DNA of 64,000 nt from Phycicoccus sp. Soil802 (lineage in GTDB: Bacteria; Actinomycetota; Actinomycetes; Actinomycetales; Dermatophilaceae), in the NCBI RefSeq assembly GCF_001429605.1, contig NZ_LMSS01000006.1, forward strand, positions 393,256 to 457,255. Reading direction: 5' to 3'. This document shows, piece after piece, positions 222-63,989 of this stretch. A program made the position numbers and the translations under genes. Every line of letters starts with the position of its first letter. The first letter of the stretch is position 1. The notes beneath the pieces are model-generated. The model was not told where the DNA came from. It did not search any database and saw nothing but the letters and a program-made list of their open reading frames with translations.

Positions 222-853
222 ATCCGACGGGTTCCGTTGGGCTGCACCGCGATCCACGGCACGTCCCACCCGGCGATCCGCAGCTCACGGCTGGCGAACC
301 TGCCCTCGTCCAGCAGGGTCACCTGACCCGTCGCCGGGTCGTAGACGTCGAGCACCCGGTCGCCGTCACCCGGGAGGACCAGCGTGACGTGGCGCGGCAG
401 CAGGCCGTTGCCGATGTAGAGCAGGGCCGGCTCGCCGTCGGCGACGACCTCCACGAGGCGCGCGTGCGCGTCCCGCAGCGCGCGCCGGGTGAGCTGCCGG
501 AGCACCCGCAGCTCGTAGTCGGTCCCCCGCCGCGACGCCCCGAACTCGAGCTCCTTGCGAGCACCCCAGGGTGGGGTGCCCAGCGACCGGGGCCACGGGA
601 CGTTGAGCCGGCCGCCGCCGGAGAACAGCCGGTTGGTGCGCCCCATCACGACCCGTTCGTATGCCGCGAAGCGCTCCTTCTCGGTGGCGCCGGGTGGGGC
701 GTCGGCCCGTGGGCCCTCACCGGAGGTGATCCACCGCGCGAAGACCGGGTTGACCAGCATCCTGGCCACCGTCAGGCAGGCCGAACCACACGTCACCGGG
801 GACTGCTGGACCGGCCCGATGTCACCGCTGCGCAACCGGTACCCCGAGGACAT
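152..853 (-). CDS. Papain/C39-like cysteine peptidase-fold protein, uncharacterised
   Basis: A 233-aa protein without signal peptide or membrane helix. Near the N-terminus it has Gln16/Gln17 followed by TCGSAC (Cys22, Cys26). Later come RHVTLV (His155) and VYDP (Asp172). A Gln five or six residues before a CG-containing Cys, then His and Asp about 130-150 residues on, is the layout of papain-fold C39-type peptidases, so a protease or transglutaminase-like role is inferred. Start: ATG 853 follows GAGGATGAG. An in-frame start at 892 would add 13 residues with no better ribosome site. The 3' end lies antisense to the end of valS. No ABC exporter or bacteriocin precursor is adjacent, so a C39 leader-peptidase role has no support from context. 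Confidence 0.6.
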   Translation of the reverse strand: MSSGYRLRSGDIGPVQQSPVTCGSACLTVARMLVNPVFARWITSGEGPRADAPPGATEKERFAAYERVVMGRTNRLFSGGGRLNVPWPRSLGTPPWGARKELEFGASRRGTDYELRVLRQLTRRALRDAHARLVEVVADGEPALLYIGNGLLPRHVTLVLPGDGDRVLDVYDPATGQVTLLDEGRFASRELRIAGWDVPWIAVQPNGTRRIQAFGFATGISSASRTSGVSASA

Positions 854-902
854 GGCCTCATCCTCGCGGGTGACGCCGCAAACTTCCACCAACGGCGCGC
901 GG

Positions 903-3469: not shown

Positions 3470-3957
3470 TCCGCCGTCTCGCGGGCCTGCCCCCCGCCCA
3501 GCTCTTCCTCGTCGTCCTCGGCGTGACGGTGGCCATCGGCGCGCTCGCGGTGTCGGTGACGGCGCTGGGCAACGTGGGCATGCTGATCGCCTCCGCCGCC
3601 CTGCTCGCGGCGCTGGCCATCGTGGCCCAGTGGCTCTGGCAGGCGCGCCAGTCGACGGACTGGGACAACACCTTCACCGAGGCCGCTGCGCCCCGCGGCG
3701 TCGACTCCCGCATCAGCCGGCTCGCCGGCGACGTGCGCGAGGCCGGCACCGGCGCCCCCGCCCCGAGCGCCCGTCTCCACGCCACGCTCAGCAGCCTGGC
3801 CACCGAACGGCTCCGCAGCCGCGGCGACGGGACCCTGACCGACGGCGCCGCGGTCCTGGGTCCCGACCTCGCGGCATACCTCGCTGCACCCCCGACCACC
3901 CGCCTCACCGCCGCCCAGCTCGCGGCGTTCACCACCACCCTGGAGGAGCTCTCGTGA
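3466..3957 (+). CDS. Small membrane protein of the MoxR/DUF58 operon
   Basis: A 163-aa protein with two hydrophobic helices at the N-terminus (about residues 10-33 and 36-56) followed by a hydrophilic, probably cytosolic, alpha/beta tail. I recognise no catalytic motif. It starts with GTG at 3466-3468, overlapping the DUF4129 stop in a GTGA junction, and its own stop overlaps the MoxR start in the same way, so all are translated together. Proteins of this size and layout occur between DUF4129 and MoxR genes in actinobacteria but have no assigned function. Confidence 0.8.
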   Translation: MIRRLAGLPPAQLFLVVLGVTVAIGALAVSVTALGNVGMLIASAALLAALAIVAQWLWQARQSTDWDNTFTEAAAPRGVDSRISRLAGDVREAGTGAPAPSARLHATLSSLATERLRSRGDGTLTDGAAVLGPDLAAYLAAPPTTRLTAAQLAAFTTTLEELS

Positions 3958-4943
3958 CCCTGACCCTCGACGAGGTCGCCGCCCGCGCGACCGCCATCCT
4001 CACCGAGGTCGAACGTGCCGTCGTCGGCAAGCGCCAGAGCCTGGAGATCGTGCTCTCCGGCATCCTCGCCGGCGGCCACGTGCTGATGGAGGACTTCCCG
4101 GGGCTGGGCAAGACGCTCGCGGCGCGGTCGTTCGCGCAGGCGCTGGGGCTCGACTTCGCGCGGGCCCAGTTCACGCCCGACCTGCTGCCCAGCGACCTGA
4201 CCGGGTCGTTCCTCTACGACCAGCGCAGCCACGAGTTCACCTTCCGCAAGGGGCCGCTGTTCACCGGGCTGCTGCTCGCCGACGAGATCAACCGGACGCC
4301 CCCCAAGACCCAGTCCGCGCTGCTCGAGGCGATGCAGGAGGGGCAGGTGACCGTCGAGGGCGAGACCTTCGTGCTGCCCAAGCCGTTCCACGTGCTGGCC
4401 ACGGCGAATCCTGTTGAGTACGAAGGGACTTACCCCCTTCCCGAGGCCCAGCTCGACCGCTTCCTGCTGCGGGTGAGCTTCGGCTACCCGACCCCGGCCG
4501 ACGAGTGGGAGGTCCTCCAACGACGGATGGCGCGCCAGCAGGAGGCCCAGGTGGTCGCCAGCGTGACCGACGGGGCCGGCCTTATCGAGATGCAGCGGGC
4601 CGTCGAGACGGTGACCGTCGACGCGGGTGTGGGCCAGTACTGCGTGCGACTCGTCGGCGCGACGCGCACCCACCAGAACCTCCTCATGGGTGCCTCGCCG
4701 CGCGCCTCGCTGGCGCTGCTGCTGACGTCCCGCGCGTATGCCGTGCTGCGCGGCCGCGACTACGTCACCCCCGAGGACGTCAAGGCGGTGGCGCACGCTG
4801 CCCTCGACCACCGCGTCACCGTGCGTCCCGAGCTGTGGATGAACGACGTCTCCGCGGCCAGCGTCGTCGACAGCGTGCTGTCCTCGGTGCCGATCCCGGC
4901 GGCCACGGAGACCGGCCCGCGGACTGGTTTCGAGCGTCCGTGA
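3954..4943 (+). CDS. MoxR-family AAA+ ATPase
   Basis: A 329-aa AAA+ protein of the MoxR/RavA clade. Walker A is GLGKT (residues 50-54), Walker B ends in Asp110-Glu111 (LLADEINR), and a further MoxR signature is ATANPVEYEGTYPLPEAQLDRF. Family members act as chaperone-like ATPases that mature or insert metal cofactors or remodel partner complexes, usually with DUF58/VWA proteins encoded next door. That partner is present immediately downstream. The GTG start at 3954 overlaps the previous stop and the stop overlaps the DUF58 GTG. The family call is secure; the substrate is unknown. Confidence 0.95.
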   Translation: MTLTLDEVAARATAILTEVERAVVGKRQSLEIVLSGILAGGHVLMEDFPGLGKTLAARSFAQALGLDFARAQFTPDLLPSDLTGSFLYDQRSHEFTFRKGPLFTGLLLADEINRTPPKTQSALLEAMQEGQVTVEGETFVLPKPFHVLATANPVEYEGTYPLPEAQLDRFLLRVSFGYPTPADEWEVLQRRMARQQEAQVVASVTDGAGLIEMQRAVETVTVDAGVGQYCVRLVGATRTHQNLLMGASPRASLALLLTSRAYAVLRGRDYVTPEDVKAVAHAALDHRVTVRPELWMNDVSAASVVDSVLSSVPIPAATETGPRTGFERP

Positions 4944-6316: not shown

Positions 6317-6837
6317 TGTCGCGCTCCCAGCTGGTGCTGCGCGGTCTGCTGACGGTGGCCTCGCTGACCTTCCTCGCCCTCACCCTCGCCTGGTCCCCCC
6401 ACCCGATCGTCGTGCTGGCAATCGGCATCGTCGCGCTCACCGTGTACGCCGCCGTCGAGCCGGACTCCGGGCTCGTCACCGTCCTGCTCGGGGCGCAGGC
6501 ACTGCACTGGGCGGCGGCCGTCCCCGTGCCGACCACCACCGGGGCGTGGGTGGCCCTGCTCGGCGCCGCGTGGTCGGGACTGGTCCTGCACCTCACCGCC
6601 AGCCTCGCGGCCAGCCTGCCGGGTCCGGCCCCCGTCCCCGTCCCGAGCCTGCGCCGCTGGGCCCGTCGTGGTGCCGTCGTGGCCGCGGCCACGGTGCCGG
6701 TGTGGGCGGTGGCGCTGCTCGCCGGGCAGGAGAGCGCCCGGGGTCAGGTCTCCCTGACGTATGCCGCGATCGCCGCCATCGCGCTGCTCGCGTTCGCCAC
6801 CTGGCTGCTGAGCCGCGAGGACCGCCCCCGCCCCTGA
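6316..6837 (+). CDS. Integral membrane protein, last gene of the MoxR/DUF58 operon
   Basis: A 173-aa protein with about five hydrophobic helices (roughly residues 8-27, 29-45, 49-70, 73-95 and 115-165) and almost no soluble part. No family motif is recognised. The ATG at 6316 shares its A with the last base of the DUF58 TGA. In many genomes this slot of the operon carries a transglutaminase-like protein (TgpA type). Here only this small membrane protein is found, which suggests it closes the complex. It is followed by a strong hairpin at 6941-6968. Confidence 0.78.
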   Translation: MSRSQLVLRGLLTVASLTFLALTLAWSPHPIVVLAIGIVALTVYAAVEPDSGLVTVLLGAQALHWAAAVPVPTTTGAWVALLGAAWSGLVLHLTASLAASLPGPAPVPVPSLRRWARRGAVVAAATVPVWAVALLAGQESARGQVSLTYAAIAAIALLAFATWLLSREDRPRP

Positions 6838-9117: not shown

Positions 9118-9155
9118 AGGTATGCCGCCCGCTCTGGCGAGCGGGCGGCATACCT
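9118..9155. terminator. Perfect 17-bp hairpin built from two inverted GTATGCCG words
   Basis: The left arm is 9118-9134 (AGGTATGCCGCCCGCTC), the loop TGGC 9135-9138 and the right arm 9139-9155, fully complementary. It follows clpP2 (stop at 9191, minus strand) and probably ends the clpP1-clpP2 transcript. Both arms contain the over-represented word GTATGCCG, like the inverted uptake sequences that act as terminators in Neisseria and Pasteurellaceae. Confidence 0.75.
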
Positions 9156-10621: not shown

Positions 10622-10669
10622 GCGGGGCGGGCCGGCGTCCGGACCGGTATGCCGTCCGGCCGGGCCCCG
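10622..10669. terminator. Imperfect GC-rich hairpin with GTATGCC in its loop, after the MFS gene
   Basis: A CGGGGCGGGCCGG...GTCCGGAC arm can pair with GTCCGGCCGGGCCCCG around a loop of about 9 nt that contains the over-represented GTATGCCG word (10648). It lies just past the stop of the minus-strand MFS gene. Confidence 0.45.
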
Positions 10670-12058: not shown

Positions 12059-13147
12059 ATGAGCCGTCCGCGTCAACCTCGTCCCACCCTGCGCGCCGTG
12101 GCGCAGGCCGCGGGCGTGTCCACGTCGACGGCCTCGCTCGCCTTCAGCGGCAAGGGCCCCGTGGCACCGGAGACCGTCGCCCGCGTGCGCGCCGCCGCGG
12201 AGGAGCTCGGGTACGCCGGGCCGGACCCCCTCGCGTCGTCCCTGCGGCAGGGGCGCTCCGGCGTGGTCGGCGTCGTCGTCGAGGGCCGGCTGCTGCACGC
12301 CTTCCGCGACCCCTTCGCCGTCAGTGTCCTCGACGGGCTCTCCCAGGTGCTCGACGAGATCCCCGCCGGCATGCTGCTCATCGCCCAGCCTGCGGGCACC
12401 CCGGAGCGGGCCATCACCCAGCTGTCCGCCACCGCCCTCGACGCGGTGGTCTTCTCGCTCTGCGGTCCCGACACGAACCCGGCGGTCGATCACCTGGCCG
12501 CCCGCGGCATACCGATGCTCGGGGACGGCTCACCCGCCGACCCGCGCATCACCCACCTCGCCCTCGACAACCGTGGCGCCACGGTCGAGCTGGGCCGGCA
12601 CCTGGAGTCGCTGGGTCACCGCCGGGTGGCGCACGTGATGATGCCCCTGCGACACGACTCCGTGACCGGACCGGCCAGCCTGGCGGACGTCGCTGCCGCC
12701 GAGTTCGCCGACACCCGCGACCGGGCGCTCGGCTTCCTCGACGTCTTCGGCGATGCGGGCGGGGTGCCGAGCGCGCCCTCCGGCCTCGTCCAGACCTCGA
12801 TCCCCGACGTCGAGCAGGGCGCCATCGCCGCCCGCCTCTTGCTGGACGTTCCACAGGCCCAGCGACCGACGGCCGTCGTCGCGCAGTCGGACCTGCTCGC
12901 GATGGGGGTGGTCCGGGCGGCCGAGGAGCTGGGGCTCCGGGTGCCCGACGACCTGAGCGTGACCGGGTTCGACGGCGTGGAGCTGCCGTGGTTCCCCGGC
13001 ACGCTGACGACCATCGACCAGCACGGCGGCGCCAAGGGTCGGCTGATGGGCGAGATGCTGCGCAGCCTGCTCGACGGTGACCGGCCCGACGACGCCGTGC
13101 AGCGCACCGACCTGCGGATCGGCACGACCACGGCACCGGTCGGCTAG
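12059..13147 (+). CDS. LacI-family transcriptional regulator
   Basis: A 362-aa regulator. The N-terminal HTH (about residues 10-32, TLRAVAQAAGVSTSTASLAFSG) is followed by the hinge helix (about 45-60) and a periplasmic-binding-protein-like effector domain with TAVVAQSDLLAMGVVRAAEELG and the LSVTGFDG motif. Its job is to repress the divergent MFS transporter, and probably itself, through the double palindrome at 12019-12044, until its sugar or nucleoside ligand binds. The ATG is 7 nt after TAGTCT, with no ribosome-binding site, so translation is probably leaderless. Confidence 0.93.
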   Translation: MSRPRQPRPTLRAVAQAAGVSTSTASLAFSGKGPVAPETVARVRAAAEELGYAGPDPLASSLRQGRSGVVGVVVEGRLLHAFRDPFAVSVLDGLSQVLDEIPAGMLLIAQPAGTPERAITQLSATALDAVVFSLCGPDTNPAVDHLAARGIPMLGDGSPADPRITHLALDNRGATVELGRHLESLGHRRVAHVMMPLRHDSVTGPASLADVAAAEFADTRDRALGFLDVFGDAGGVPSAPSGLVQTSIPDVEQGAIAARLLLDVPQAQRPTAVVAQSDLLAMGVVRAAEELGLRVPDDLSVTGFDGVELPWFPGTLTTIDQHGGAKGRLMGEMLRSLLDGDRPDDAVQRTDLRIGTTTAPVG

Positions 13148-15187: not shown

Positions 15188-15620
15188 TGCGGGATACTCC
15201 AAGGTCGTGGGGGGCGTGGTGCTGGTGGTGGTGCTGGGGCGTGGTGCGTGCCTGCGGTGCGGAGCACCACCGGTCACCTCGCGACGGGGCAATGCGAAGG
15301 CCCGCTGCGCCGGCTTCAACAGGCGGCGACCGGGCCAAAACCTCATGGTAGCCGGTGTGCGCCCACGCTCCGAACCGGCGGCCCACCAGCCCGAGGAGTA
15401 TGCCGCGGAGCATGCCGCGCGGGACCACCGCCACATCGCCGGCCGAAGTGCCCATGACATCCGTCACGACTTTGTGTCAAGGGTCTCCCCGGCGCTTCCC
15501 AATTCTTCGCCAGCCGGGAGGTTGGGCACCGAAATCCATTGCCAGACAATGCTTTCGGAGTGAGTCTTCCACGGGTGAGGCGGTAGTGGCCGCCTCCTTC
15601 CACGTCAGGAGACACTTCGT
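15188..15620. other. 433-nt divergent intergenic region between tig and the S53 peptidase gene
   Basis: No coding region or tRNA is supported here. It must hold the tig promoter (minus) and the S53 promoter (plus), but I see no convincing -35/-10 pair for either. It contains one GTATGCCG word (15398) followed by a related GCATGCCGC, giving a short imperfect direct repeat. AGGAG at 15607-15611 is the ribosome site of the peptidase gene. Confidence 0.5.
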
Positions 15621-16817
15621 ATGCGCACGCAGATCCTCTCTGTCGCGTTGGCGGCCTCGGCATCCCTGGGGCTCGTCACGACCGCGGTCACCGCCGCTTC
15701 GGCAGCCCCCTCCCCCAAGGCGCACGCCCAGCGCGTGTGCGCGACGCCGAGCTCACCGACCGTCGCGGCGTGCCACGCCCTGAAGCTGGTCGACCCCGAC
15801 GGCCGAGCGGTCAGCCCAGCGGGACAACCGGTCACCCCGAACGCCATCTCCGGCAAGACCCCCGCGGACATCCAGAGCGCCTACAAGGTGACGGGGCTGT
15901 CGGCCGGCGGACGCACCGTCGCGATCGTCGACGCCTACGGCTACCCGAACGCCGAGCGCGACCTCGGCATCTACCGCGCCCAGTGGGGCCTGTCGGCCTG
16001 CACCACGGCCAACGGCTGCCTGCGCATCATCAACCAGACCGGCGGCACGTCGCTGCCCCGCTTCAACGTCGGCTGGGCCGGCGAGCAGGCCCTCGACCTC
16101 GACGCCGTGTCGGCGACCTGCCCGAGCTGCAAGATCGTGCTGGTGCAGGCCAACAGCGCCAGCCTCACCGACCTCGGTGCAGCGGTGAACACCGCGGCCA
16201 CGCAGGCCGGTGTCGCCGCGATCTCGAACAGCTACGGCGGAGGCGACCTTGCCGACGGCTCGTACGGCGCGGCATACAACCACCCCGGTATCGCCGTGAC
16301 CGCCTCGACCGGCGACAACGGGTACCAGGGCGGCAGCTTCCCCGCGTCATCGCACTACGTCACCGCCATCGGCGGCACCTCCCTGGTCAAGGACTCCAGC
16401 GCCCGCGGGTGGTCGGAGACGGCCTGGAGCGGCGCCGGCTCCGGCTGCACCACCCTCAACGCGGCGCCGGCCGGCCAGACCTCGGCGATGACCAGCTGCA
16501 GCGGTCGTGCCATCGCGGACGTCTCGGCCGTGGCCGACCCGGCGACCGGACTGGCCACCTACGCACCGACCACGAAGACCGCCTCGTCGTGGGCGCAGTA
16601 CGGCGGCACCAGCCTCTCCTCGCCGATCGTCGCCTCGGTCTACGCCCTCAGTGGCAACACCGCCGGTTACGCGAACACGCTCCCCTACGCCAACCCGGCG
16701 GGACTGTTCGACGTGACCTCGGGCTCCAACGGGACGTGCGCCTCCTGGTGCACGGCGAGGTCCGGCTGGGACGGCCCGACCGGGCTCGGCACCCCGAACG
16801 GCACCTCGGCGTTCTGA
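15621..16817 (+). CDS. Secreted S53-family (sedolisin/kumamolisin-like) serine peptidase
   Basis: A 398-aa exported protein. The signal peptide covers residues 1-29 (cut near ASA-AP). Catalytic residues of the Ser-Glu-Asp family are visible: Glu155 and Asp159 (AGEQALDLD), the oxyanion Asp232 in STGDNG, and Ser331 in GGTSLSSP. The C-terminal DGPTGLGTPNG is the usual calcium-site region. The pro-region is very short (about 50 residues) compared with the classical 180-residue activation domain; short forms are common in actinobacteria. It has its own AGGAG ribosome site and a strong terminator, so it is monocistronic. The expected role is extracellular protein degradation. Confidence 0.9.
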   Translation: MRTQILSVALAASASLGLVTTAVTAASAAPSPKAHAQRVCATPSSPTVAACHALKLVDPDGRAVSPAGQPVTPNAISGKTPADIQSAYKVTGLSAGGRTVAIVDAYGYPNAERDLGIYRAQWGLSACTTANGCLRIINQTGGTSLPRFNVGWAGEQALDLDAVSATCPSCKIVLVQANSASLTDLGAAVNTAATQAGVAAISNSYGGGDLADGSYGAAYNHPGIAVTASTGDNGYQGGSFPASSHYVTAIGGTSLVKDSSARGWSETAWSGAGSGCTTLNAAPAGQTSAMTSCSGRAIADVSAVADPATGLATYAPTTKTASSWAQYGGTSLSSPIVASVYALSGNTAGYANTLPYANPAGLFDVTSGSNGTCASWCTARSGWDGPTGLGTPNGTSAF

Positions 16818-37442: not shown

Positions 37443-37477
37443 GTGGACATCCTCGCAGGGCTGTCGGGCCGGCGGCA

Positions 37478-37483
37478 TACGGT
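37478..37483 (+). promoter_or_regulatory. -10-like TACGGT before recQ, overlapping a GTATGCCG word
   Basis: TACGGT ends 7 nt before ATG 37491. Its first bases belong to GCGGCATAC, one of the intergenic copies of the repeated word. Confidence 0.4.
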
Positions 37484-45198: not shown

Positions 45199-47075
45199 CC
45201 CATCCGCACGACTGCCGCGGTGAACGGCGGCAGGTGCACGCCATGGCCCCGGAGCCGGGTCTGTGCCGGCTCCCAGGCGAGCACGACACTCTCGGGTGCT
45301 GCGTCGAGGGGCACGGTCCAGCGCGACTCGGCCAGGTTGACGACCACCCGGTGGGCGCCACGACGGACGACGAACCAGCCGGCACCCTCATCGAAGTCGA
45401 CTGCCACTGACTCCAGGCTTCCGTTGCCGAGGTCGAACTCCTTGCGCCGCAACGCGATCAACGCCTGGTACCACGCGAACATCCGCGCGTGCTCCCCTTC
45501 GTGGAGCTCGGCCCAGTCGAGCTGCGAGCGACGGTAGGTCTGCTCGTCCTGCGGGTCCGGCACGTCCTCGGCGGCCCAGCCGTGGGCCTCGAACTCGCGA
45601 CGGCGGCCTTCGGTGACGGCCCGCTTCATCTCCGGCTCGTCGAAGTCGGTGAAGAACTGGAACGGCGTCGTGGCCGCCCACTCCTCCCCCATGAACACCA
45701 TCGGCGTGAACGGACCGGTGAGGTAGAGGGCTGCCCCGATGGCTTGGCGACCCGGTGTCACGACAGCGGAGATGCGGTCGCCGACGGCCCGGTTGCCGAC
45801 CTGGTCGTGGGTCTGCAGGTAGGCGAGGAACCGTCGCCCGTCGACCTTCCGGCGGTCGACCGGGGCACCCCACTCGGCGTCGCGGAAGCTGGACCAGCGG
45901 CCGTCGTGGAGGAACGCCCTCGTGAGCGTCTTGGCCAGCACCGCGAGCGGCCCGCCGTCGGGCAGGGCACGGCAGTGACCGGCGAAGTCACCGTAGTAGC
46001 CCTGGGTCTCACCGGTCAGGGTGACGTGGAGGGCGTGGTGGATGTCGTCGTCCCACTGGGCGTCCATGCCGAGCCCACCGTCGGCGGTCGGGGTGACGGT
46101 GCGGGGGTCGTTCAGGTCGCTCTCGGCGATGAGGTCGAGGGGCCGGCCCAGGCGCGCGCTCAGCGTCGCCACCTCGTCGGCCAGCTGCGCGAGCACGTGC
46201 TGGTCGGAGTCGTCCCTGAGCTCGTGCACGGCGTCGAGGCGCAGCGCGTCGACGTGGAAGTCCGCGAACCACCGCAACGCGTTGTCGATGATCCAGCGCC
46301 GCACGTGGAGGCTGCCCGGGCCGTCGAGGTTGAACCCGTGGCCCCACGGCGTGGGGTGCGACTCGGTGAAGTAGGGACCGAACCGCGACAGGTAGTTCCC
46401 GACCGGCCCGAGGTGGTTGTAGACGAGGTCGAGGCACACGCCGAGGCCGAGGCCGTGACACGCGTCGACGAAGCGCTGGAGCGCCGCGGGCCCGTCGTAC
46501 TCGTCGTCGACCGCCCACGGCCCGACGCCGTCGTAGCCCCAGTTCCAGCGACCCGGCCACGAGGCCACCGGCATCAGCTCGACGACATCGACCCCGAGGT
46601 CGACCAGGTGCTGCAGCCGACGCTGCGCAGCGTCGAGGGTGCCCTCGGGGGTGAAGGTCCCCACGTGCAACTCGTAGACCACGGCCCCGAGCACACCCTC
46701 ACCGTGCTGCGGCCCGGCCCAGGTCGCGTCGCGCCAGGCGTGCCGGCCCGCGTCGAACCAGCGGCTCTCGCCGTGCACGCCGTGGGGCTGCCAGGCCGAG
46801 CGCGGGTCCGGGGTCACGTCACCGCCGTCGACGCGGAACGCATAGTCCAGACACGGGTATGCCGCCGTGCCCGGCTCAGCGGCGGGGGCCTCCCAGCGCC
46901 ACCAGCCGTCGCCCTTGCGCTCCATCTCCGAGCGCCGCGCCGGGCCGTCGTCGAGCGACCACTCGACCTCCACGTGCTGGGCAGCGGGCGCCCACACGGT
47001 GAGCTCGGGCCCGGGAAGGACCGGCTCGCCTGCCGGCTTCGTCGCGGGCGAGGACGTCATTTGTGCGGTGTTCAT
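45177..47075 (-). CDS. treZ: Malto-oligosyltrehalose trehalohydrolase
   Basis: A 632-aa GH13 enzyme that releases trehalose from the end of maltooligosyl-trehalose. An N-terminal CBM48-like beta domain (LTVWAPAAQHVEVEW) precedes the barrel. Catalytic residues are Asp281 (LRLDAVH), Glu318 (IAESD) and Asp424 (THDQVGN). Last gene of the treX-treY-treZ operon; its ATG overlaps the treY stop by 3 nt. The pathway makes the compatible solute trehalose from glycogen or maltodextrin. Confidence 0.96.
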   Translation of the reverse strand: MNTAQMTSSPATKPAGEPVLPGPELTVWAPAAQHVEVEWSLDDGPARRSEMERKGDGWWRWEAPAAEPGTAAYPCLDYAFRVDGGDVTPDPRSAWQPHGVHGESRWFDAGRHAWRDATWAGPQHGEGVLGAVVYELHVGTFTPEGTLDAAQRRLQHLVDLGVDVVELMPVASWPGRWNWGYDGVGPWAVDDEYDGPAALQRFVDACHGLGLGVCLDLVYNHLGPVGNYLSRFGPYFTESHPTPWGHGFNLDGPGSLHVRRWIIDNALRWFADFHVDALRLDAVHELRDDSDQHVLAQLADEVATLSARLGRPLDLIAESDLNDPRTVTPTADGGLGMDAQWDDDIHHALHVTLTGETQGYYGDFAGHCRALPDGGPLAVLAKTLTRAFLHDGRWSSFRDAEWGAPVDRRKVDGRRFLAYLQTHDQVGNRAVGDRISAVVTPGRQAIGAALYLTGPFTPMVFMGEEWAATTPFQFFTDFDEPEMKRAVTEGRRREFEAHGWAAEDVPDPQDEQTYRRSQLDWAELHEGEHARMFAWYQALIALRRKEFDLGNGSLESVAVDFDEGAGWFVVRRGAHRVVVNLAESRWTVPLDAAPESVVLAWEPAQTRLRGHGVHLPPFTAAVVRMGQSTARS

Positions 47076-49591
47076 TTGGGGTCAAGGCTGCCATGCCGCA
47101 CGAGCAAGGCAACTGGAAGGGCCGCCAGCACCTCCGAGAGCTGTGCTGACCCGCTCGGCCCGGGCGGCACGGGCCGGCCGGTGAGCAGGTCCTCCCACGC
47201 ACCCTCGGGGAGGTCGAGCCCGGCAGCGCCCCAGCCGCCGTCGGCGCGCAGCCGCTCGCCGAGGCGAGTCATGACCGCGACCACCTGGGTGCCGCTCGCG
47301 TCGCCCCTCCCCAGGGCCAGGGCGTGCGCGCTCGAGGTGGGGACGGCGGCATACGTGGCGTCCTCGCCGGTGAACCACTCGGGGTGGTCACGGCGCAGCC
47401 GGAGGGTGCGTGAGGTCACGAGCAGCTTCTCGTCGTCGAGGTCGCTGGCGGGCTCGCCGGCGTCGAGCCGGGTGAGCCGCTGCCTGCGAGTGGCGTAGTC
47501 GACAGGCCGGCGGTTGTCGGGGTCGACGAGGGAGAGGTCGACCAGCTCGGTGCCCTGGTAGACGTCGGGGACGCCGGGCAGCACGAGCTGGAGGAGCTTC
47601 TGGCCCAGCAGCGTCTCGCGGGCGGCCGGGGCGGCGCGGTCCACCCATCGGCCGACCTGCTCGACGAGGGCGGGCTCGGTGGTCAGGGCCGCCACGAACG
47701 TCGCGACGTCGGCCTCGTAGTCGCTGTCAGGGTCGGTCCAGGTGGTGTGCTGCTTGGCCTCGCGGACCGCCTTGGTGGCGTAGGCCTGCAGGCGGTCGTT
47801 GTCGACCGGCCAGGCGCCGACGGCGGTCTGGAGCAGGAGGTACTCGGTGGCCGGGTCGAGCCGGCTGCCCCGGTGGCGCGCCGCGAGGTCGCGGGTCGCG
47901 CGCACCCAGGCCGCCCACTCCCCCGGCAGCTCGGCGAGGACCGAGAGCCGGGCGCGGACGTCCTCGGACCGCTTGGTGTCGTGCGTGGAGAGCGTCGTCA
48001 TCGTGGTCGGCCAGCTGGCGAGCTGACGGCTGGCGAACGCGTGCAGCTCGGTCGGGTCGAGGCCGAGGTGGCCGGGGTCGCCGCCGACCTCGTTCAGACC
48101 GGTGAGGCGTGCGTAGCGGTAGAACGCGGTGTCCTCGATGCCCTTGGCCATGACCGGGCCGCAGGTCTGCTGGAACCGCACCATGAACTCGCGGTGGGCG
48201 GCCTCGGCGGCCTCGTCCAGCTCGTCGAGCGGCGTGCCCTCGGCCAGGAGCGAGACGATCCCCACCGCGTCCTGGTCGGCCTCGGCGACGTGGGTGGCGG
48301 CGCGGGCCTCGGCGTGGGCGAGCACCTGCAGCTGGTCGTGGTCGTCGGGCTGGCCGGGCACGAGGTAGGCGCGGTAGCGGTCCATCGCCACGAGCAGCGC
48401 GCCCAGGCCACGGCGCAGGGAGGCCTGGTCCTCGTCGGGCACGATCTTCGCGAGCAGGCGCATGAGCCGGTTGACCTCGGCCTCCTGGACCTGGGCGACG
48501 ACCTGCTCCTTGGCGGCCAGCACCAGCTCGTCGAGCTCCTGTCGCTCACCCACGAGCTCGGCGAGCAGGTCGGTCAGCGGCGCTTCGCCCTCGGGGTCGA
48601 CGAACACCTGCTGCACGCGCAGGAGGGTGTCGTAACCGGTCGTGCCCGCGCAGCGCCAGTCGTCGGGCAGCTGCTCGTGGCCCTCGAGGATCTTCTCGGC
48701 GACCACCCACGCGTCGCCGGTGGCGTCGGCCAGCCGGGCGAGGTAGCCCGCCGGGTCGGCCAGCCCGTCGGGGTGGTCGATCCGGAACCCGTCGATCGTG
48801 CCGGCCCCGAACTCCTCCAGCAGGAGCCGGTGGGTGTGGTGGAACACGTCGGGGTCCTCGACCCTGACGGCGACCAGGGTGGTGACGTCGAAGAACCGCC
48901 GGTAGTTGAGCCAACTGCCGCCCTCGCGCCAGTCGCAGAGCCGATAGTGCTGCGCTGCAACGAGATCGGCGAGGTCGAGCGACTCGGTCCCGGACCGGAC
49001 GGGAAAGACGTGGTCGTAGTAGCGCAGGACCGTCTCGTCACCGTGCGGCCCACCGCCCGCCTCGACGGAGAGCTCGTCGGCGGCCAGCACGGCCTCGAGC
49101 GACTGGCCGAGCACCGGCACCAGGACGCGCCCGTCCTCGGCGTCCCAGTCGACGTCGAACCAGTGCGCGTGGTCGGAGTCGCGCCCCTCGCGCAGCAGGA
49201 ACCACCAGGGGTGGTTGAGCGACGCCGGGGTCGGCGTCGTCATGTGATTGGGCACCACGTCGACGACCGTGCCGAGGCCGGCCTGCCGGAGGGCGGCAGC
49301 CAACAGGTCGAAACCCTCCGCGCCACCCGCCTCCTCGTTGAGGAACTCGTGGCTGACCACGTCGTACCCGTGCGTCGACCCGGGGGCCGGCGCCAGGATC
49401 GGCGACAGGTAGGCGTGTGAGACCCCCAGTGCGGCCAGGTAGTCCGCCTGCTCGGCAGCAGCACCGAAGGTGAAGGCCGGCTGTACCTGCAGCCGGTAGG
49501 TCGCGGTGGGCACCACCCGCCCGGCGGCGGGCCGGTGCGGTGCTGCACCCCCCGGCATACCGGTCTGCACTGCGCCCGTCGACGAGCTCAT
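47072..49591 (-). CDS. treY: Malto-oligosyltrehalose synthase
   Basis: An 839-aa GH13 enzyme that turns the terminal alpha-1,4 bond of a maltooligosaccharide into alpha,alpha-1,1. TreY signatures are TYRLQVQPAFTF near the N-terminus, VVDVVPNHM, GFRIDHPDGL with nucleophile Asp272, Glu299 (VAEKILEGHE) and STHDTKRSEDVRAR. It is somewhat longer than average, with insertions. ATG 49591 overlaps the treX stop. The product goes to TreZ downstream. Confidence 0.96.
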   Translation of the reverse strand: MSSSTGAVQTGMPGGAAPHRPAAGRVVPTATYRLQVQPAFTFGAAAEQADYLAALGVSHAYLSPILAPAPGSTHGYDVVSHEFLNEEAGGAEGFDLLAAALRQAGLGTVVDVVPNHMTTPTPASLNHPWWFLLREGRDSDHAHWFDVDWDAEDGRVLVPVLGQSLEAVLAADELSVEAGGGPHGDETVLRYYDHVFPVRSGTESLDLADLVAAQHYRLCDWREGGSWLNYRRFFDVTTLVAVRVEDPDVFHHTHRLLLEEFGAGTIDGFRIDHPDGLADPAGYLARLADATGDAWVVAEKILEGHEQLPDDWRCAGTTGYDTLLRVQQVFVDPEGEAPLTDLLAELVGERQELDELVLAAKEQVVAQVQEAEVNRLMRLLAKIVPDEDQASLRRGLGALLVAMDRYRAYLVPGQPDDHDQLQVLAHAEARAATHVAEADQDAVGIVSLLAEGTPLDELDEAAEAAHREFMVRFQQTCGPVMAKGIEDTAFYRYARLTGLNEVGGDPGHLGLDPTELHAFASRQLASWPTTMTTLSTHDTKRSEDVRARLSVLAELPGEWAAWVRATRDLAARHRGSRLDPATEYLLLQTAVGAWPVDNDRLQAYATKAVREAKQHTTWTDPDSDYEADVATFVAALTTEPALVEQVGRWVDRAAPAARETLLGQKLLQLVLPGVPDVYQGTELVDLSLVDPDNRRPVDYATRRQRLTRLDAGEPASDLDDEKLLVTSRTLRLRRDHPEWFTGEDATYAAVPTSSAHALALGRGDASGTQVVAVMTRLGERLRADGGWGAAGLDLPEGAWEDLLTGRPVPPGPSGSAQLSEVLAALPVALLVRHGSLDPK

Positions 49592-51753
49592 CGGCGCGCG
49601 AGCGCCGCTCCGGCCGGCGACCCTGACGGAAGCACTCGAGGACAGCGCAGCACCACGACGCTGCGGCCCTGCGCGGTGATCTTGGCGTCGGGCTTGTACT
49701 CCTTCGCCTCGACCTCCTGCGCGGACGTGTCGAGCTCGGTGACCCAGCGGTCGCCGTACTCCTTGCCTGGGAGCACGAACGGGAGCGGGTCGTGGTGGCC
49801 GTTGAAGATCACGAGGAAGTGGTCGTCGAGGGTCTGCTGCCCGCGGGTGTCGGGCTCGGGGATCGTCTGTCCGTTGAGGAAGACCATCATCGAGCGCGCA
49901 TAGCCGTTGGCCCAGGAGTCCTCGTCCATGTGGTTGCCGCCAGGCTCGAACCAGGCGATGTCGCCGACCGCGCTCTCGCCACCGTGGTCGGCCGACCCGG
50001 CGAAGAACCGGCGCCGACGGAACACCGGGTGGTCACGACGCAGCGCGACGAGCTTCTGGGTGAAGGAGATGAGGTCGAGCTGGTCCTGGTCGAGGTCCCA
50101 GTCGATCCACGAGATCTCGTTGTCCTGGCAGTAGCCGTTGTTGTTGCCGGACTGGGTGCGGCCAAGCTCGTCACCGTGCAGGAGCATCGGCACGCCCTGC
50201 GAGAGCAGCAGGGTCGCGAGCATGTTGCGCTGCTGGCGCAGCCGGAGCGCGTTGATCTTCTTGTCCTTGGTGGGGCCCTCGACGCCGCAGTTCCAGGAGC
50301 GGTTGTGGCTCTCGCCGTCGTTGCCGTCCTCGCCGTTGGCATCGTTGTGCTTCTCGTTGTAGGACACCAGGTCTCGCAACGTGAAGCCGTCGTGCGCGGT
50401 GACGAAGTTGATCGAGGCGATCGGCTTGCGCCCGCTGTGCTCGTAGAGGTCGCTCGAGCCGGTGAGCCGCGAGGCGAACTCGCCCAGCGTCGCGGACTCG
50501 CCACGCCAGAAGTCGCGGACCGTGTCGCGGTACTTGCCGTTCCACTCGGTCCACAGGGGCGGGAAGTTGCCGACCTGGTAGCCGCCGTCGCCGACGTCCC
50601 ACGGCTCCGCGATGAGCTTGACCTGGCTCACCACCGGGTCCTGCTGGACGAGGTCGAAGAAGGCCGACAGCTTGTCGACCTCGTGGAACTGGCGGGCCAG
50701 CGTCGCCGCGAGGTCGAACCGGAAGCCGTCGACGTGCATCTCGGTGACCCAGTAGCGCAGCGAGTCCATGATCAGCTGCAGCACGTGGGGGTGCCGCATG
50801 AGCAGGCTGTTCCCGGTGCCGGTGGTGTCGTAGTAGTGCGCCTTGTCGTCGTCGACGAGCCGGTAGTAGGCGGCGTTGTCGATCCCGCGGAAGCAGATGG
50901 TGGGGCCGAGCTGGTTGCCCTCGGCCGTGTGGTTGTAGACCACGTCGAGGATGACCTCGATGCCCGCCTCGTGGAGCGCCTTGACCATGCCCTTGAACTC
51001 GGCGACCTGCTCCCCCCGCGTGCCGTATGCCGCGTAGCCGTTGTGCGGCGCGAGGAACCCGATCGTGTTGTAGCCCCAGTAGTTGGACAGGCCCTTGTCG
51101 CGCAGGGTGAAGTCGTTGACGAACTGGTGCACCGGCATCAGCTCGATGGCCGTGATGCCGAGGCCCTTGAGGTGCTCGATGATCACCGGGTGGGCGATGC
51201 CCGCGTAGGTGCCGCGGATCTCGTCGGGGATGTCGGGGTGGGTCTCGGTGAGGCCCTTGACGTGGGCTTCGTAGATGACGCTGTTGTGGTACTCGTGCCG
51301 TGGCAGGCGGTCCTGGCCCCAGTCGAAGAACGGGTTGATCACGACCGAGAGCATCGTGTGGCCGAGACTGTCCTCGACGTTGGCCTTGGCCGGGTCCTCG
51401 CTGGGGGCGTCGAAGTCGTAGGAGAAGAGCGACTGGTCGCCGTCGGGCTGGCCGTCGATCGCCTTGGCGTAGGGGTCGATGAGGAGCTTGTTGGGGTTGC
51501 AGCGATGGCCCTCGGCCGGCTTGTAGGGGCCGTGCACGCGGTAGCCGTAGCGCTGGCCGGGCTGCACGCCCGGGAGGTAGGCATGCCACACGAACCCGTC
51601 GACCTCGGGGAGCTCGACCCGGGTCTCCGCGCCGTTGTCGTCGATGAGGCAGAGCTCGACCTTCTGCGCCACCTCGGAGAAGAGCGCGAAGTTCACCCCG
51701 GTGCCGTCATACGTGGCGCCGAGGGGGTAGGACTTGCCGGGCCAGATTTCCAT
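49588..51753 (-). CDS. treX: Glycogen debranching enzyme (isoamylase type)
   Basis: A 721-aa GH13_11 enzyme that cuts alpha-1,6 branches of glycogen to give linear maltodextrins for TreY. The N-terminal CBM48 (GVNFALFSEVAQKVELCLID) is followed by the barrel with nucleophile Asp347 (GFRFDLAATL), acid/base Glu383 (IAEPWDVG) and TAHDGFTL. ATG 51753 starts MEIWPGKSYPLG, as in homologues, with AAGG about 7 nt upstream. It is first in the operon. The 206-nt gap to fabG carries the TetR box of that gene; no specific tre operator was recognised. glgX is an equally used name. Confidence 0.95.
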   Translation of the reverse strand: MEIWPGKSYPLGATYDGTGVNFALFSEVAQKVELCLIDDNGAETRVELPEVDGFVWHAYLPGVQPGQRYGYRVHGPYKPAEGHRCNPNKLLIDPYAKAIDGQPDGDQSLFSYDFDAPSEDPAKANVEDSLGHTMLSVVINPFFDWGQDRLPRHEYHNSVIYEAHVKGLTETHPDIPDEIRGTYAGIAHPVIIEHLKGLGITAIELMPVHQFVNDFTLRDKGLSNYWGYNTIGFLAPHNGYAAYGTRGEQVAEFKGMVKALHEAGIEVILDVVYNHTAEGNQLGPTICFRGIDNAAYYRLVDDDKAHYYDTTGTGNSLLMRHPHVLQLIMDSLRYWVTEMHVDGFRFDLAATLARQFHEVDKLSAFFDLVQQDPVVSQVKLIAEPWDVGDGGYQVGNFPPLWTEWNGKYRDTVRDFWRGESATLGEFASRLTGSSDLYEHSGRKPIASINFVTAHDGFTLRDLVSYNEKHNDANGEDGNDGESHNRSWNCGVEGPTKDKKINALRLRQQRNMLATLLLSQGVPMLLHGDELGRTQSGNNNGYCQDNEISWIDWDLDQDQLDLISFTQKLVALRRDHPVFRRRRFFAGSADHGGESAVGDIAWFEPGGNHMDEDSWANGYARSMMVFLNGQTIPEPDTRGQQTLDDHFLVIFNGHHDPLPFVLPGKEYGDRWVTELDTSAQEVEAKEYKPDAKITAQGRSVVVLRCPRVLPSGSPAGAALARR

Positions 51754-53682: not shown

Positions 53683-54669
53683 TCAGGCGCCGAGCACGAC
53701 CAGGCGTCCGGTGCTCTCCCCGGCTCCGAGCCGGGTGAGGGCTCCGGGCGCCTCGTCGAACGGCACCTGCTGCGACACGACCGGTCGCACCAGACCGGCG
53801 CCGGCCCAGGCCACGAGTTGGTCGTGCGCCGCGGCCGCGACGGCATGGTCGCGCTGGAGGTACAGGCCCCAGTGCAGCCCGAGGATCGAGTAGTTCTTGA
53901 CCAGGGCGTGGTTCAGCGCGGGCGCCGGGATCGAGCCGCTGGTGAAGCCCACCACCACGATCCGGCCCTCGAACGCCACCACCTTGGTCGAGGCGTCGTA
54001 CGCCGCGCCGCCCACGGGGTCGAAGACCACGTCGGCACCCGAGCGCCCCAGCGCGTCCTTCAGGGCGGCCACGAGGTCGCCGGCCGAGCGGTCGAGGACC
54101 ACATCGGCCCCGGCCGATCGCGCGACGTCCCCCTTGGCTGCGCTGCCGACCACGGCCACGACCCGAGCGCCGAGCGCCTTGCCCACCTGCACCGCCGCCG
54201 TGCCGACCCCGCCTGCCGCCGCGTGCACGAGCAGGGTCTCCCCCGCCTTGAGTGCGGCTCGCCGCACGAGCCCCACGTATGCCGTCTGGTAGCCGATCGT
54301 CAGCGCGCTCGCCTCGGCGTCGGTGAGGGACACCGGTGCCGCGAACGTGCCGGTGGCCGGCATGAGGCACTCCTGGGCCAGCCCTCCGTGCGGCACCGCC
54401 GTCGTGCCGACGACCCGGTCCCCGACCGCGAACCCCGCGACACCGTCGCCGAGCTCGAGCACCTCGCCGCAGACCTCGACGCCGGGGGTGAAGGGGAGGT
54501 CGGGGCGCACCTGGTAGTGACCGCGCACCATCAGGACGTCGGGGAAGTTGAGCGCCGTGGCCAGCACCCGCACGCGCAGGTGACCGGGCCCGACCTCGGG
54601 CAGCGGCGCCTCGACGGCACCCATCACGTCGGCCGGCTCACCCAGGGCGGCGACCTGCCACGCCCTCAC
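53683..54669 (-). CDS. Zinc-free medium-chain dehydrogenase (NADPH:quinone oxidoreductase type)
   Basis: A 328-aa MDR protein. The GroES-like domain has TALNFPDVLMVRGHYQ and GVEVCGEV, and the Rossmann motif is AAAGGVGTAAVQ (about residues 149-160). Zinc-ligand cysteines of alcohol dehydrogenases are absent, as in quinone or enoyl-CoA reductases. It is 49 nt downstream of the SDR gene on the same strand and so may belong to the acyl-CoA dehydrogenase-SDR unit controlled by the TetR box. Confidence 0.88.
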   Translation of the reverse strand: MRAWQVAALGEPADVMGAVEAPLPEVGPGHLRVRVLATALNFPDVLMVRGHYQVRPDLPFTPGVEVCGEVLELGDGVAGFAVGDRVVGTTAVPHGGLAQECLMPATGTFAAPVSLTDAEASALTIGYQTAYVGLVRRAALKAGETLLVHAAAGGVGTAAVQVGKALGARVVAVVGSAAKGDVARSAGADVVLDRSAGDLVAALKDALGRSGADVVFDPVGGAAYDASTKVVAFEGRIVVVGFTSGSIPAPALNHALVKNYSILGLHWGLYLQRDHAVAAAAHDQLVAWAGAGLVRPVVSQQVPFDEAPGALTRLGAGESTGRLVVLGA

Positions 54670-54718: not shown

Positions 54719-55516
54719 CTAGAGGTTGGCGCCGAGGGTCACGCCACCGTCGACCACGAGGGTCTGCCCGGTCACCCAGCTGGCATCCGGTGACAGGAGG
54801 AACGAGACGGCCCCCGCGATGTCGTCGGGAGCGCCCAGCCGCTTCATCGGGTAGCGCGCGGCGACCTTCTCCTCGCGACCCTCGTACAACGCCTGCGCGA
54901 ACTGCGTCTTGACGATCGCCGGCGCCACCGCGTTCACGCGGATCGACGGCCCGAGCTGGTACGCCAGCTCGACGGTGAGGTGGATCAGCGCAGCCTTGCT
55001 CACGGCATACCAGCCGATCGTGCCGGTGGCCCCGAGCCCCGCGATGGACGCGACGTTGACGACGGCACCGGGGCGCTCGCCCTCTCCGAGCCCGGCGGCG
55101 ATCGCCTTCTGGGTCCAGGCGAACGCGGCCAGCACGTTGACGTCCATGATCTTGCGGGCGACGTCGAGGGGTGCGTCGAGGATCGGGCCGTAGACCGGGT
55201 TGATCCCGGTGTTGTTGACCAGGTGGTCGAGCCCGCCGAACGCCTCGTGGGCGAGCCGGATCACCTCGTCCTGGTGCGCCTCGTCCGCGGCATTGCCCGC
55301 GACGCCGAGCGCCCTGGACTCGCCACCGAGCTGCTCGACGGCCTCCGCGAGGGCCTCGGGCTTGCGGGCGGTGATGACGACCCGAGCCCCCTCCGCCACC
55401 AGCTTCTGGGCGATGCCGAGACCGATGCCCCGGGAGGCGCCGGTGACGATCGCGACCTTGCCGGCGTGGACGCCCGGGCCCGCAGCGTCAGGACCAGCCG
55501 TGTCAGGAGCAGCCAC
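54719..55516 (-). CDS. Short-chain dehydrogenase/reductase
   Basis: A 265-aa SDR with an Ala/Pro/Gly N-terminal extension, the cofactor motif TGASRGIG (25-32), NNTG (101-104) and catalytic Ser157, Tyr170 and Lys174. It ends WVTGQTLVVDGGVTLG. GTG 55516 lies 1 nt after the acyl-CoA dehydrogenase stop, so it is co-translated. It is probably a hydroxyacyl-CoA or alcohol oxidation step after the dehydrogenase. Confidence 0.9.
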   Translation of the reverse strand: MAAPDTAGPDAAGPGVHAGKVAIVTGASRGIGLGIAQKLVAEGARVVITARKPEALAEAVEQLGGESRALGVAGNAADEAHQDEVIRLAHEAFGGLDHLVNNTGINPVYGPILDAPLDVARKIMDVNVLAAFAWTQKAIAAGLGEGERPGAVVNVASIAGLGATGTIGWYAVSKAALIHLTVELAYQLGPSIRVNAVAPAIVKTQFAQALYEGREEKVAARYPMKRLGAPDDIAGAVSFLLSPDASWVTGQTLVVDGGVTLGANL

Positions 55517-62286: not shown

Positions 62287-63989
62287 CGAACCGCCTTCAC
62301 CGCTGCTGCCGCGTCGGCCAGGCGTTGCGCCTGGCCGGATCTGGTCTCCACGTCCTCGAGGGCCTGGTCGTAGCGGACCCGCTCCGCGGCATACAGCTCC
62401 TGCACGTGCTCGAGGAGGCGCTTGCGCGCCTTGGTCGCCATCTCTCGCACCGCCTGGTCGCCGAAGATCGCCTCGAGCACCTTCTGGGCCAGCACGGCGG
62501 TGCCGCCGGCGATGCCCACCTCGGCGCCGATCAGGCCACCGGTGTGCGCGAAGGCCACCAGCATGAGGATCACGCCGATGCCGTTGAGCCCGTATGCCGC
62601 GATGCGGGCCGTCGTGCGACGGTCCTTGCCCTCGCCGCGCACCAGCTCGAGCACCTCGCCCTGCCAGTCACGGACCAGCCGCTCCGTGCGCTCCCCCAGG
62701 TCCGGGGACGCCTTCGACAGCCCTGTCGTCTCGTCCAACAGCGCATCACCGCCGGGGAGCTTGCGCCACTGGCGGGCCACGGTCGCGGCGGCGCCCTGCC
62801 CCTGGGCGTCGATCAGGGCCGCGACGCCGGTCTGCAGCGCCTCACCGAGGTCGCCGGACGGTGGGGCCTGGCCCTTGAGCGCCGCGGTGATCCGGTCGCG
62901 GACCTTGGAGATCGTCGACTCGACCTGCTTGAAGAACTCGCCGGTGCCGACGTACTCCTGCCAGCGAGCCAGCACCTCGCCGCGCAGGAGGGTGCCGTCG
63001 GTCATGCCGTGCTCGACGTTGGCCAGCGCCTCGCGGTAGGCCGTGTCGGACTCCCGCTGCAGCGCGGCCAAGGCCTGCGCCTGCTGGTGGGTCGCCGTCA
63101 CGAGCACCGCGGCCCGCTCGTCGAGGCTGCCGAGAGCGCCGTCGAGGGTCTGCTTGACGATCACCGAGCGGGCTCGGGCGTCGCTGGCCAGGGCGGTGAG
63201 CCACGACCGCAGCCGGGCCACGTCGGGCTCGGGCAGGCGTCCCTCGGCCGTCAGGGTCGCCTCCGGGATGCCGAAGATGGGTGCGGTCGACAGGCCCTGC
63301 TCGCGCAACATGGAGGCGAGGTGGCTGCGGATGTCGGCCATCGCCTCTGGCGGCACCCGGTCGAGGACGATCGCGATGGCGGTGCCGCGCTCGGCGGCTT
63401 CGCGCAGCAGGTCCCACGGCACCGCATCCGCATAGCGCGCGGCAGTCGTGACGAAGAGCCAGAGGTCCGCCGCGGCGAGCAGCTGCGCGGCCAGCGCGCG
63501 GTTGGCGCTGACCACCGAGTCGATGTCAGGGGCGTCGAGCAGGGCCATGCCCGGCGGCAGGGAGCTGGACGGCACGAGGCGCAGGGTGTTGGCCCCGTCA
63601 CCCTCGGTCGGCGCGCCGGTGATCCGGCTCAGGGTCGGGAGCACGCGGTCGTCGGCGAACCACCGCTCGTCCTGGGGGTGGTGCACCAGCACCGGGGTCG
63701 TGGTCGTGGGTCGCAGCACCCCGGAGCGACTCACCTCGGCGTCGACGATCGAGTTCACCAGGGTCGACTTGCCGGCTCCGGTCGACCCGCCGACGACGGC
63801 CAGCAGGGGCGCGTCGAGGGAGCGCAGCCGCGGGATGACGTAGTCGTCGAGCTGCTTCAGGAGGGCGTCCCGGGTCGCGCGCCCGGTCATCGCATCGGGG
63901 ATGTCGAGAGGCAGCCGGGCCTGCTCGACCTCTTCGCGGAGGATCGACACGGCGCCCAGCATGGACACGGCGTCGTCCCTGGAAATCAC
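62283..63989 (-). CDS. Dynamin-like GTPase (first of a tandem pair)
   Basis: A 568-aa protein. The P-loop is GSTGAGKST (68-76), followed by LLDAPDID (G3-like) and VLDRVPPEA in place of a canonical NKxD G4 motif. A long helical stalk spans about 250-460. Near residue 470-505 there is a hydrophobic segment (LNGIGVILMLVAFAHTGGLIGAEVGIAGGTAVLA) typical of a membrane paddle, then coiled-coil helices. GTG 63989 is close to the right edge and no ribosome site is clear, so a start further upstream cannot be excluded. It forms an operon with the following GTPase. Confidence 0.87.
   Translation of the reverse strand: MISRDDAVSMLGAVSILREEVEQARLPLDIPDAMTGRATRDALLKQLDDYVIPRLRSLDAPLLAVVGGSTGAGKSTLVNSIVDAEVSRSGVLRPTTTTPVLVHHPQDERWFADDRVLPTLSRITGAPTEGDGANTLRLVPSSSLPPGMALLDAPDIDSVVSANRALAAQLLAAADLWLFVTTAARYADAVPWDLLREAAERGTAIAIVLDRVPPEAMADIRSHLASMLREQGLSTAPIFGIPEATLTAEGRLPEPDVARLRSWLTALASDARARSVIVKQTLDGALGSLDERAAVLVTATHQQAQALAALQRESDTAYREALANVEHGMTDGTLLRGEVLARWQEYVGTGEFFKQVESTISKVRDRITAALKGQAPPSGDLGEALQTGVAALIDAQGQGAAATVARQWRKLPGGDALLDETTGLSKASPDLGERTERLVRDWQGEVLELVRGEGKDRRTTARIAAYGLNGIGVILMLVAFAHTGGLIGAEVGIAGGTAVLAQKVLEAIFGDQAVREMATKARKRLLEHVQELYAAERVRYDQALEDVETRSGQAQRLADAAAAVKAVR

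Follow-up and report, generated by a model that had tools for sequence, protein, structure and literature searches.

The question raised by a stretch of 64,000 nucleotides from Phycicoccus sp. Soil802 (contig NZ_LMSS01000006.1, positions 393,256 to 457,255; C6:393256-457255 in the present numbering), referred to as the window, is why a single octamer, GTATGCCG, recurs throughout it on both strands, within as well as between genes. The answer that fits best, and to which we would assign a probability of roughly 0.8 on the basis of sequence comparisons, is that GTATGCCG (more loosely GTATGCCG[C/T]G) is a putative uptake sequence of a self-preferring natural transformation in the family Dermatophilaceae, and that another family of this order has the sister version (C)GGATGCC[G/T]CG. 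A preliminary description of the window had already considered a DNA uptake sequence, next to a methylation or recognition site and a site for a nucleoid protein. Of these three options, uptake is the best fit and may be called supported rather than proven, because of inverted pairs of the word behind genes, its local strand balance, its dialects (two of which follow the ComEC tree), a word-free island and the presence of competence genes; the methylation-site and nucleoid-site options explain less.

Exact counting on both strands of the window gives 33 copies of GTATGCCG (17 plus, 16 minus) and 34 copies of the heptamer TATGCCG (18 plus, 16 minus), one of which lies outside the octamer. These numbers are identical to those of the preliminary description (34 heptamers, 33 with a preceding G, 18 versus 16 by strand), whose 13 quoted example positions are all correct to within 3 bases and whose codon registers do occur in genic copies. 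Its chance expectation of about six heptamers was too generous, as 100 dinucleotide shuffles of the window lead to an expectation of 2.05 for TATGCCG (largest 5) and of 0.72 for GTATGCCG (largest 4). No other 8-mer of the window exceeds the dinucleotide model as strongly as GTATGCCG. In the gene model of this analysis, 7 of the 33 copies are intergenic, in agreement with the at least six reported before.

Enrichment is just as strong in the rest of the genome, a check that had been proposed before. In total, the 4,294,604 bases of the genome in 9 contigs (G000) contain 2,241 copies of GTATGCCG (1143 + 1098), i. e. one per ~1.9 kb, versus 51 (25 + 26) of the reversed word. A sample consisting of the window and 20 further stretches (448,784 bases, 87% of them covered by gene calls; Pfam tests of contested open reading frames (ORFs) showed the strand choice to be right) holds 233 copies, with 172 coding, 57 intergenic and 4 at gene edges. 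This corresponds to a density of 0.97 per kb between and 0.44 per kb within genes, where some of the "intergenic" copies may be genic because the gene caller misses some genes. C or T, then G, is favoured directly 3' of the word, and A is avoided directly 5'. Spacing is irregular (coefficient of variation (CV) 0.86), and in 19 of the 21 sampled stretches, which are all that carry copies, both strands bear the word in similar numbers, so that it lacks polarity along the replichore. Three copies in tandem with 12-base spacing were seen between called genes at L030 19449-19480 (G000:C4:219449-219480).

The coding sequence itself does not account for these copies. Shuffling synonymous codons within genes leaves 15.1 copies in the coding part of the sample (maximum 22 in 20 runs), and a first-order codon chain, which keeps proteins and codon-pair statistics, leaves 28.8 (maximum 40 in 20 runs), compared to 172 observed; the over-representation hence survives the codon-pair-preserving shuffle that had been suggested as a further check. 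Among the 8-mers with at least 20 copies in the coding sample, GTATGCCG ranks first (172 vs 13.3, synonymous-codon shuffle), and ranks 2 to 8 by codon-shuffle excess are occupied by shifted words overlapping it. The main registers of the genic copies are xxG-TAT-GCC-Gxx (Tyr-Ala, 93 of 172) and xCG-GCA-TAC (Ala-Tyr, 54). That TAT codons appear almost only inside the word was overstated, given that the word accounts for 12 of 21 TAT codons in the genes called in the window and for 93 of 189 across the sample, while the corresponding statement on GCA before TAC holds (11 of 11 pairs in the window, 54 of 56 in the sample).

Conservation was assessed in one region, that of comEC (L021, 13 own copies), by alignment with 10 same-genus genomes of 77–84% identity where aligned. 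Of 115 site-by-genome cells, 75 (65%) retain GTATGCCG, versus 35,042 of 144,463 (24%) for all 8-mers and 12,252 of 41,069 (29.8%) for those with three A/T letters. Within the word, the rare codon GCA is retained in 23 of 30 cells versus 59 of 258 elsewhere, and TAT in 47 of 67 cells versus 0 of only 4 elsewhere. The earlier proposal of selection on DNA rather than protein is thus well supported by codon nulls, conservation and rare-codon retention.

Copies of the word also pair with each other. The arrangement GTATGCCG-N(0-30)-CGGCATAC occurs at 79 sites in the genome versus 0 for the reversed control, and independent placement of the copies would yield ~9 (arithmetic from the genome count); all 11 same-genus genomes contain such pairs, with 9 to 108 sites each. 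The sample has 11 inward pairs, 10 of them between genes and one in the window's M1 peptidase gene. All 10 intergenic pairs lie 12–44 bases past a called gene end, the stems of most of these gene-end pairs reach beyond GTATGCCG, and the intergenic pairs resemble terminators. In C1:1-20000 (L011), there is no copy of the word, versus ~10 expected from the genome mean. Its genes, encoding BREX components (PglX in pieces, BrxL), a TnsB-like transposase with ATPase and a GmrSD-type restriction enzyme, are like those of a mobile BREX/Tn7-like defence island. The 4.8 kb contig C9 has no copy either. The island further encodes an AbiV/REase-ARP protein.

The distribution of the word was surveyed in 117 genomes, 71 of them from Dermatophilaceae, a family recognised by named ComEC relatives, and 46 from other families, with enrichment defined as at least 100 copies per Mb and twice the reversed control. 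By this measure, GTATGCCG is enriched in 41 of the 71 Dermatophilaceae genomes (29 of 52 genera) and in none of the 46 from other families. Similarly, among 296 genomes of the class, 6 of which belong to the family, none outside it exceeds ~52 copies per Mb, as read off the counts per genome. Named loci bearing the word include those of Knoellia remsis, Intrasporangium oryzae, Phycicoccus elongatus, Humibacillus xanthopallidus, Terrabacter sp. Root85 and Ornithinimicrobium cavernae, and loci of 12–22 kb without it include those of Janibacter indicus, Intrasporangium flavum, Dermacoccus abyssi and an uncultured Phycicoccus.

In some family members, the top words differ from GTATGCCG by one base, namely GGATGCCG, GAATGCCG, GTATGACG and GTATGCGG, each of which exceeds the codon shuffle. 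GGATGCCG is found 97 times in 100 kb of G036 (coding 65 vs 11.8 in the codon shuffle) and 57 times in 80 kb of G026 (coding 42 vs 12.5), forms inverted pairs in both (4 and 2, respectively) and reaches 3,949 copies in the whole genome of the former (289 reversed) and 3,816 in that of the latter (392 reversed). In G030, GTATGCGG occurs 17 times in 80 kb (coding 12 vs 2.4). Other genomes carry a variant next to the word itself: 23 GAATGCCG alongside 14 GTATGCCG in 35 kb of G022, 24 GTATGACG alongside 50 GTATGCCG in 60 kb of G013, and 30 GTATGACG, 28 GTATGCCG and 19 GTATGGCG in G037. On a tree of one gene, ComEC (37 rows), both genomes with the GGATGCCG dialect are sisters (support 100/99), as are G013 and G037 with the GTATGACG dialect (100/100); in the clade around the former pair, G025 and G031 bear GTATGCCG and G038 neither word. 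On this one-gene tree, these two dialects are congruent with phylogeny, with G011 as the exception discussed below. GTACGCCG, considered as a dialect of G033, G034 and G057, was dropped, since it is an ordinary Tyr-Ala codon pair that is frequent in Kribbella and Micromonospora loci.

A related word is present in a second family (f19), probably the Microbacteriaceae, judging by its wealth of genera and the small size of some of its genomes. One of its genomes, G090, was singled out by GGATGCCG (1,548 vs 184 reversed); in 80 kb of it, the word proved to be CGGATGCC, then mostly G or T, then CG, with 53 coding copies versus 5–15 in ten codon shuffles and both strands represented in each stretch. 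CGGATGCC reaches at least 200 copies per Mb and at least 5 times the reversed control, which is not codon-matched, in 56 of 120 f19 genomes (45 of 85 genera). In three more f19 genomes, 20 kb each, it exceeds the codon shuffle as well (18 vs 2.0, 14 vs 3.9 and 13 vs 3.2), and GGATGCCG tops the ranking in two of these three. Comparison of CGGATGCC with the dialect words of GTATGCCG reveals GGATGCC as a core common to both families.

The genome of Soil802 encodes plausible machinery for uptake. A ComEA-type protein (SLBB plus helix-hairpin-helix) adjoins ComEC, and dprA is present. One Tad cluster (C5, L175) encodes CpaB, TadZ-type, TadA and TadB/C proteins and also contains three Flp-like pilin genes, of which one was scanned; a second (C2, L176) combines TadA with a DUF4244 pilin, behind which stand two small genes, presumably TadE-like, although the one that was scanned gave no Pfam match. 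Neither PilM_2 (PF11104) nor N_methyl (PF07963) has a match in this or the other 10 same-genus genomes, where ComP was not searched for. The marker search covered 117 genomes, and in the 71 of the family classical type IV pilus markers are rare (PilM in 3, N_methyl in 2, none of the own genus); a tie of the word to classical type IV pili was rejected on these grounds. As side observations, the three Flp-like pilin genes of L175 stand in tandem, L175 8149-10128 (G000:C5) encodes a von Willebrand A domain N-terminal to a T2SSF (TadB-type) domain, and a ComEC match extends over two frames at G005:C1:1517076-1517881, which may reflect a disrupted gene or an assembly error; this genome bears 2,537 copies of the word.

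Presumably, the word is recognised on either strand by a DNA receptor at the cell surface, which would most likely be part of or fixed to the Tad/Flp pilus, so that word-carrying fragments would be pulled to ComEA, imported as single strands via ComEC and recombined with the help of DprA and RecA. As imported alleles would mostly carry the word, biased uptake followed by recombination could accumulate it, and it would persist wherever protein and regulation tolerate it. Drift in receptor specificity may then generate a dialect, while loss of the receptor or of competence would let the word decay, as in the word-free family members.

How does such a word relate to known ones? HIP1 of cyanobacteria, the palindromic octamer GCGATCGC, is highly iterated at the DNA level and frequent in genes; GTATGCCG, by contrast, is not a palindrome and forms separate inverted pairs. 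Neisseriaceae and Pasteurellaceae are named, in a passage of a paper (PMC12616744), as the only families known for uptake-sequence preference as of October 2025. Like GTATGCCG, the DNA uptake sequence (DUS) of Neisseriaceae, whose receptor is ComP, is a short non-palindromic word in thousands of copies. Passages on it describe inverted pairs linked to terminators and dialects following phylogeny (PMC3630211) as well as strong drops in Neisseria islands (PMC7371117), to which the one island examined here may correspond. It is unrelated in sequence, however, with a neisserial core CTG instead of ATG within GNATG, and GTATGCCG resides in high-GC Gram-positive hosts at one copy per ~1.9 kb compared to the one per 0.4–1.1 kb given for Neisseria in the same source (PMC7371117). 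A ComP-type pilin would not be expected in Soil802, as its genome lacks PilM and N-methyl pilin matches. The uptake signal sequence (USS) of Pasteurellaceae resembles GTATGCCG in that a short core word is highly enriched in the genome, and the passages on it also report an uptake preference and two types within the family (PMC12616744). Its sequence is likewise unrelated, and its flanking parts are described as T-rich (PMC1939737, in part), whereas C or T, then G, mainly flanks GTATGCCG. The word may therefore be classed as working like DUS and USS while being a member of neither, as sequence, hosts and probably pilus type differ. Soil802 further resembles the actinobacterium Micrococcus luteus, in which, according to passages of one study, transformation requires two tad clusters at the same time and comEA/comEC are present (PMC4322843); unlike the situation here, the passages on M. 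luteus (PMC4322843, PMC6370729) mention no uptake sequence. No actinobacterial uptake sequence was found among the listed titles and abstract starts of open-licence PubMed Central papers, with subscription papers and preprints outside this search.

Alternatively, the word could be bound by a nucleoid protein or a protein that organises the chromosome, for which it would provide anchoring points across the genome. This would agree with its genome-wide occurrence on both strands, its constraint at the DNA level and its retention between relatives, yet neither the terminator-like inverted pairs behind genes nor the patchy presence in the family (41 of 71 genomes) and the one-base dialects would be predicted, and the spacing is irregular, which renders such a role improbable. 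A Chi-like hot spot of recombination or repair is even less probable. While it could well consist of a short, frequent and non-palindromic word within genes, Chi-type words, like KOPS-type ones (FtsK orienting polar sequences), are strand-polar. GTATGCCG is locally balanced, with 17 versus 16 copies in the window and similar numbers per 20 kb stretch with copies, so that a strand-polar word was rejected in view of 19 stretches, and a hot spot would also leave the inverted pairs behind genes unexplained.

A role of the word as a site of methylation, restriction or another modification, favoured through self-marking, is more doubtful again. Such a site would be sequence-specific and its absence from one foreign island comprehensible, but restriction sites are usually avoided and vary from strain to strain, and methylases rarely have non-palindromic sites of 8 bases; the enrichment across 29 of 52 sampled genera of one family, and that of a related word across 45 of 85 genera of another, fits poorly with this. 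The explanation that we consider hardly credible is that codon-pair preference or a bias of mutation or repair produced the word as a side effect. It could draw on the fact that most genic copies fall into the Tyr-Ala and Ala-Tyr registers, but it is contradicted by the codon-pair chain, the intergenic density exceeds the genic one, and rare GCA is kept 3x better within the word, with TAT kept in 47 of 67 cells within it versus 0 of only 4 outside. A codon or codon-pair origin was rejected because of the two codon shuffles (15.1 and 28.8 vs 172).

An uptake sequence, which remains the preferred reading, faces several contrary observations of its own. In passages on Haemophilus and Neisseria (PMC1939737), a trail of mismatch load is described as a footprint in two species rather than as a defining property, and it would predict an excess of one-mismatch words. 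The coding sample contains 245 one-mismatch words of GTATGCCG versus 284 expected from the codon shuffle, and only GGATGCCG among them clearly exceeds it (74 vs 45); their lack of excess may reflect either sharp recognition or a different origin of GTATGCCG. The test on foreign DNA comprises a single island and thus a thin sample. On the ComEC tree, 6 state changes are needed, at least 4 of them by well-supported branches, with dialect genomes without GTATGCCG scored as lacking the word. In G011, GGATGCCG is weaker than in G036 and G026 (1,336 vs 310 reversed in the whole genome), does not belong to the top words in 80 kb, and the genome stands on a different ComEC branch, so that its shift, if real, would be independent. 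Inverted pairs of CGGATGCC are rare in f19 (1 in G227, 1 in G391; 0 in the sampled G090, G454, G422 and G106).

The machinery provides further counterarguments, as its presence does not separate word-bearing from word-free genomes (ComEC 66/68, T2SSE 70/70, DUF4244 65/70, DprA 70/70); the toolkit is hence necessary at most. The same is true for the DUF4244-type Tad cluster, where no receptor was found, as its three small pilin-like genes exist in 9 of 9 word-free and 5 of 5 word-bearing family loci. Gene order of this cluster was compared in 28 loci, in some of which, all word-free, the caller missed small genes; by direct inspection of 15 loci (the 14 just mentioned and 1 of the second family), the DUF4244 pilin and two small genes are present in 15 of 15. 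Moreover, word-bearing G035 has PilM and N_methyl and word-bearing G015 N_methyl, so that the assignment to Tad pili rests on the own genus. Taken together, the testable anatomical marks of an uptake sequence are present except for the one-mismatch excess, with the island mark resting on one case.

With these points considered, it appears likely that self-recognising transformation evolved a third time, in high-GC Gram-positives, in the form of a putative uptake system that would operate via Tad pili in two families of one order, use related words (GTATGCCG plus one-base dialects; CGGATGCC), influence terminators and the choice of codons in tens of genera and depend on a DNA receptor unlike ComP. 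If this is true, a third independent case would show uptake words to be a convergent solution, and the reasons for their rarity could be tested in dozens of genera, word-bearing and word-free alike. It would also reveal natural transformation where it was unsuspected and suggest that sequence-specific DNA receptors of a new class exist, and addition of the word to DNA may ease transformation of these bacteria.

Table 1. Positions of GTATGCCG and of its terminator-like inverted pair in the window.
Feature	Position	Strand	Basis
Copy	659..666	+	exact match
Copy	3872..3879	-	exact match
Copy	4736..4743	+	exact match
Copy	6759..6766	+	exact match
Inverted pair, extended hairpin stem, terminator-like	9120..9153	.	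37 bases behind called gene with 3' end 9191, minus strand; fold -49.9 kcal/mol with flanks
Copy, left arm of this intergenic inverted pair	9120..9127	+	exact match, gene model
Copy, right arm of same intergenic inverted pair	9146..9153	-	exact match, gene model
Copy, intergenic	10647..10654	+	exact match, gene model
Copy	12505..12512	-	exact match
Copy, intergenic	15398..15405	+	exact match, gene model
Copy	16270..16277	-	exact match
Copy	19693..19700	+	exact match
Copy	21749..21756	-	exact match
Copy	22500..22507	+	exact match
Copy	24617..24624	+	exact match
Copy, within M1 peptidase gene 25532-28087	25821..25828	-	exact match, Pfam
Copy, one arm of inverted pair within M1 peptidase gene	27493..27500	+	exact match, Pfam
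Copy, other arm of M1 peptidase intragenic pair	27525..27532	-	exact match
Copy, intergenic	29473..29480	-	exact match, gene model
Copy	31614..31621	+	exact match
Copy	36400..36407	+	exact match
Copy	36546..36553	-	exact match
Copy	37473..37480	-	exact match
Copy, intergenic	39713..39720	-	exact match, gene model
Copy	40552..40559	+	exact match
Copy	41954..41961	-	exact match
Copy	46857..46864	+	exact match
Copy	47347..47354	-	exact match
Copy, intergenic; within possible 5' gene extension (ORF 47072-49591)	49553..49560	-	exact match, gene model
Copy	51025..51032	+	exact match
Copy	54277..54284	+	exact match
Copy	55003..55010	-	exact match
Copy	62387..62394	-	exact match
Copy	62592..62599	+	exact match

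Other repeated words were encountered along the way. G046 and G047 (L160-L162) and Janibacter indicus (L058), all family members without GTATGCCG, carry another iterated word around CGAAGGGGG / CCCCCTTCG, and GAAGGGGG occurs 23 times in 20 kb of G047 versus 1.5 expected. In G050:C1:1-20000 (L164), TCGCTACG, GTAGCGAT and TAGGAGGG are present in 14, 9 and 10 copies in 20 kb, respectively, which may represent a local repeat or another word. Likewise, GGGTCAGT and TCAGTCCG have 14 copies each in 20 kb of G006 (L136), perhaps as a local repeat.

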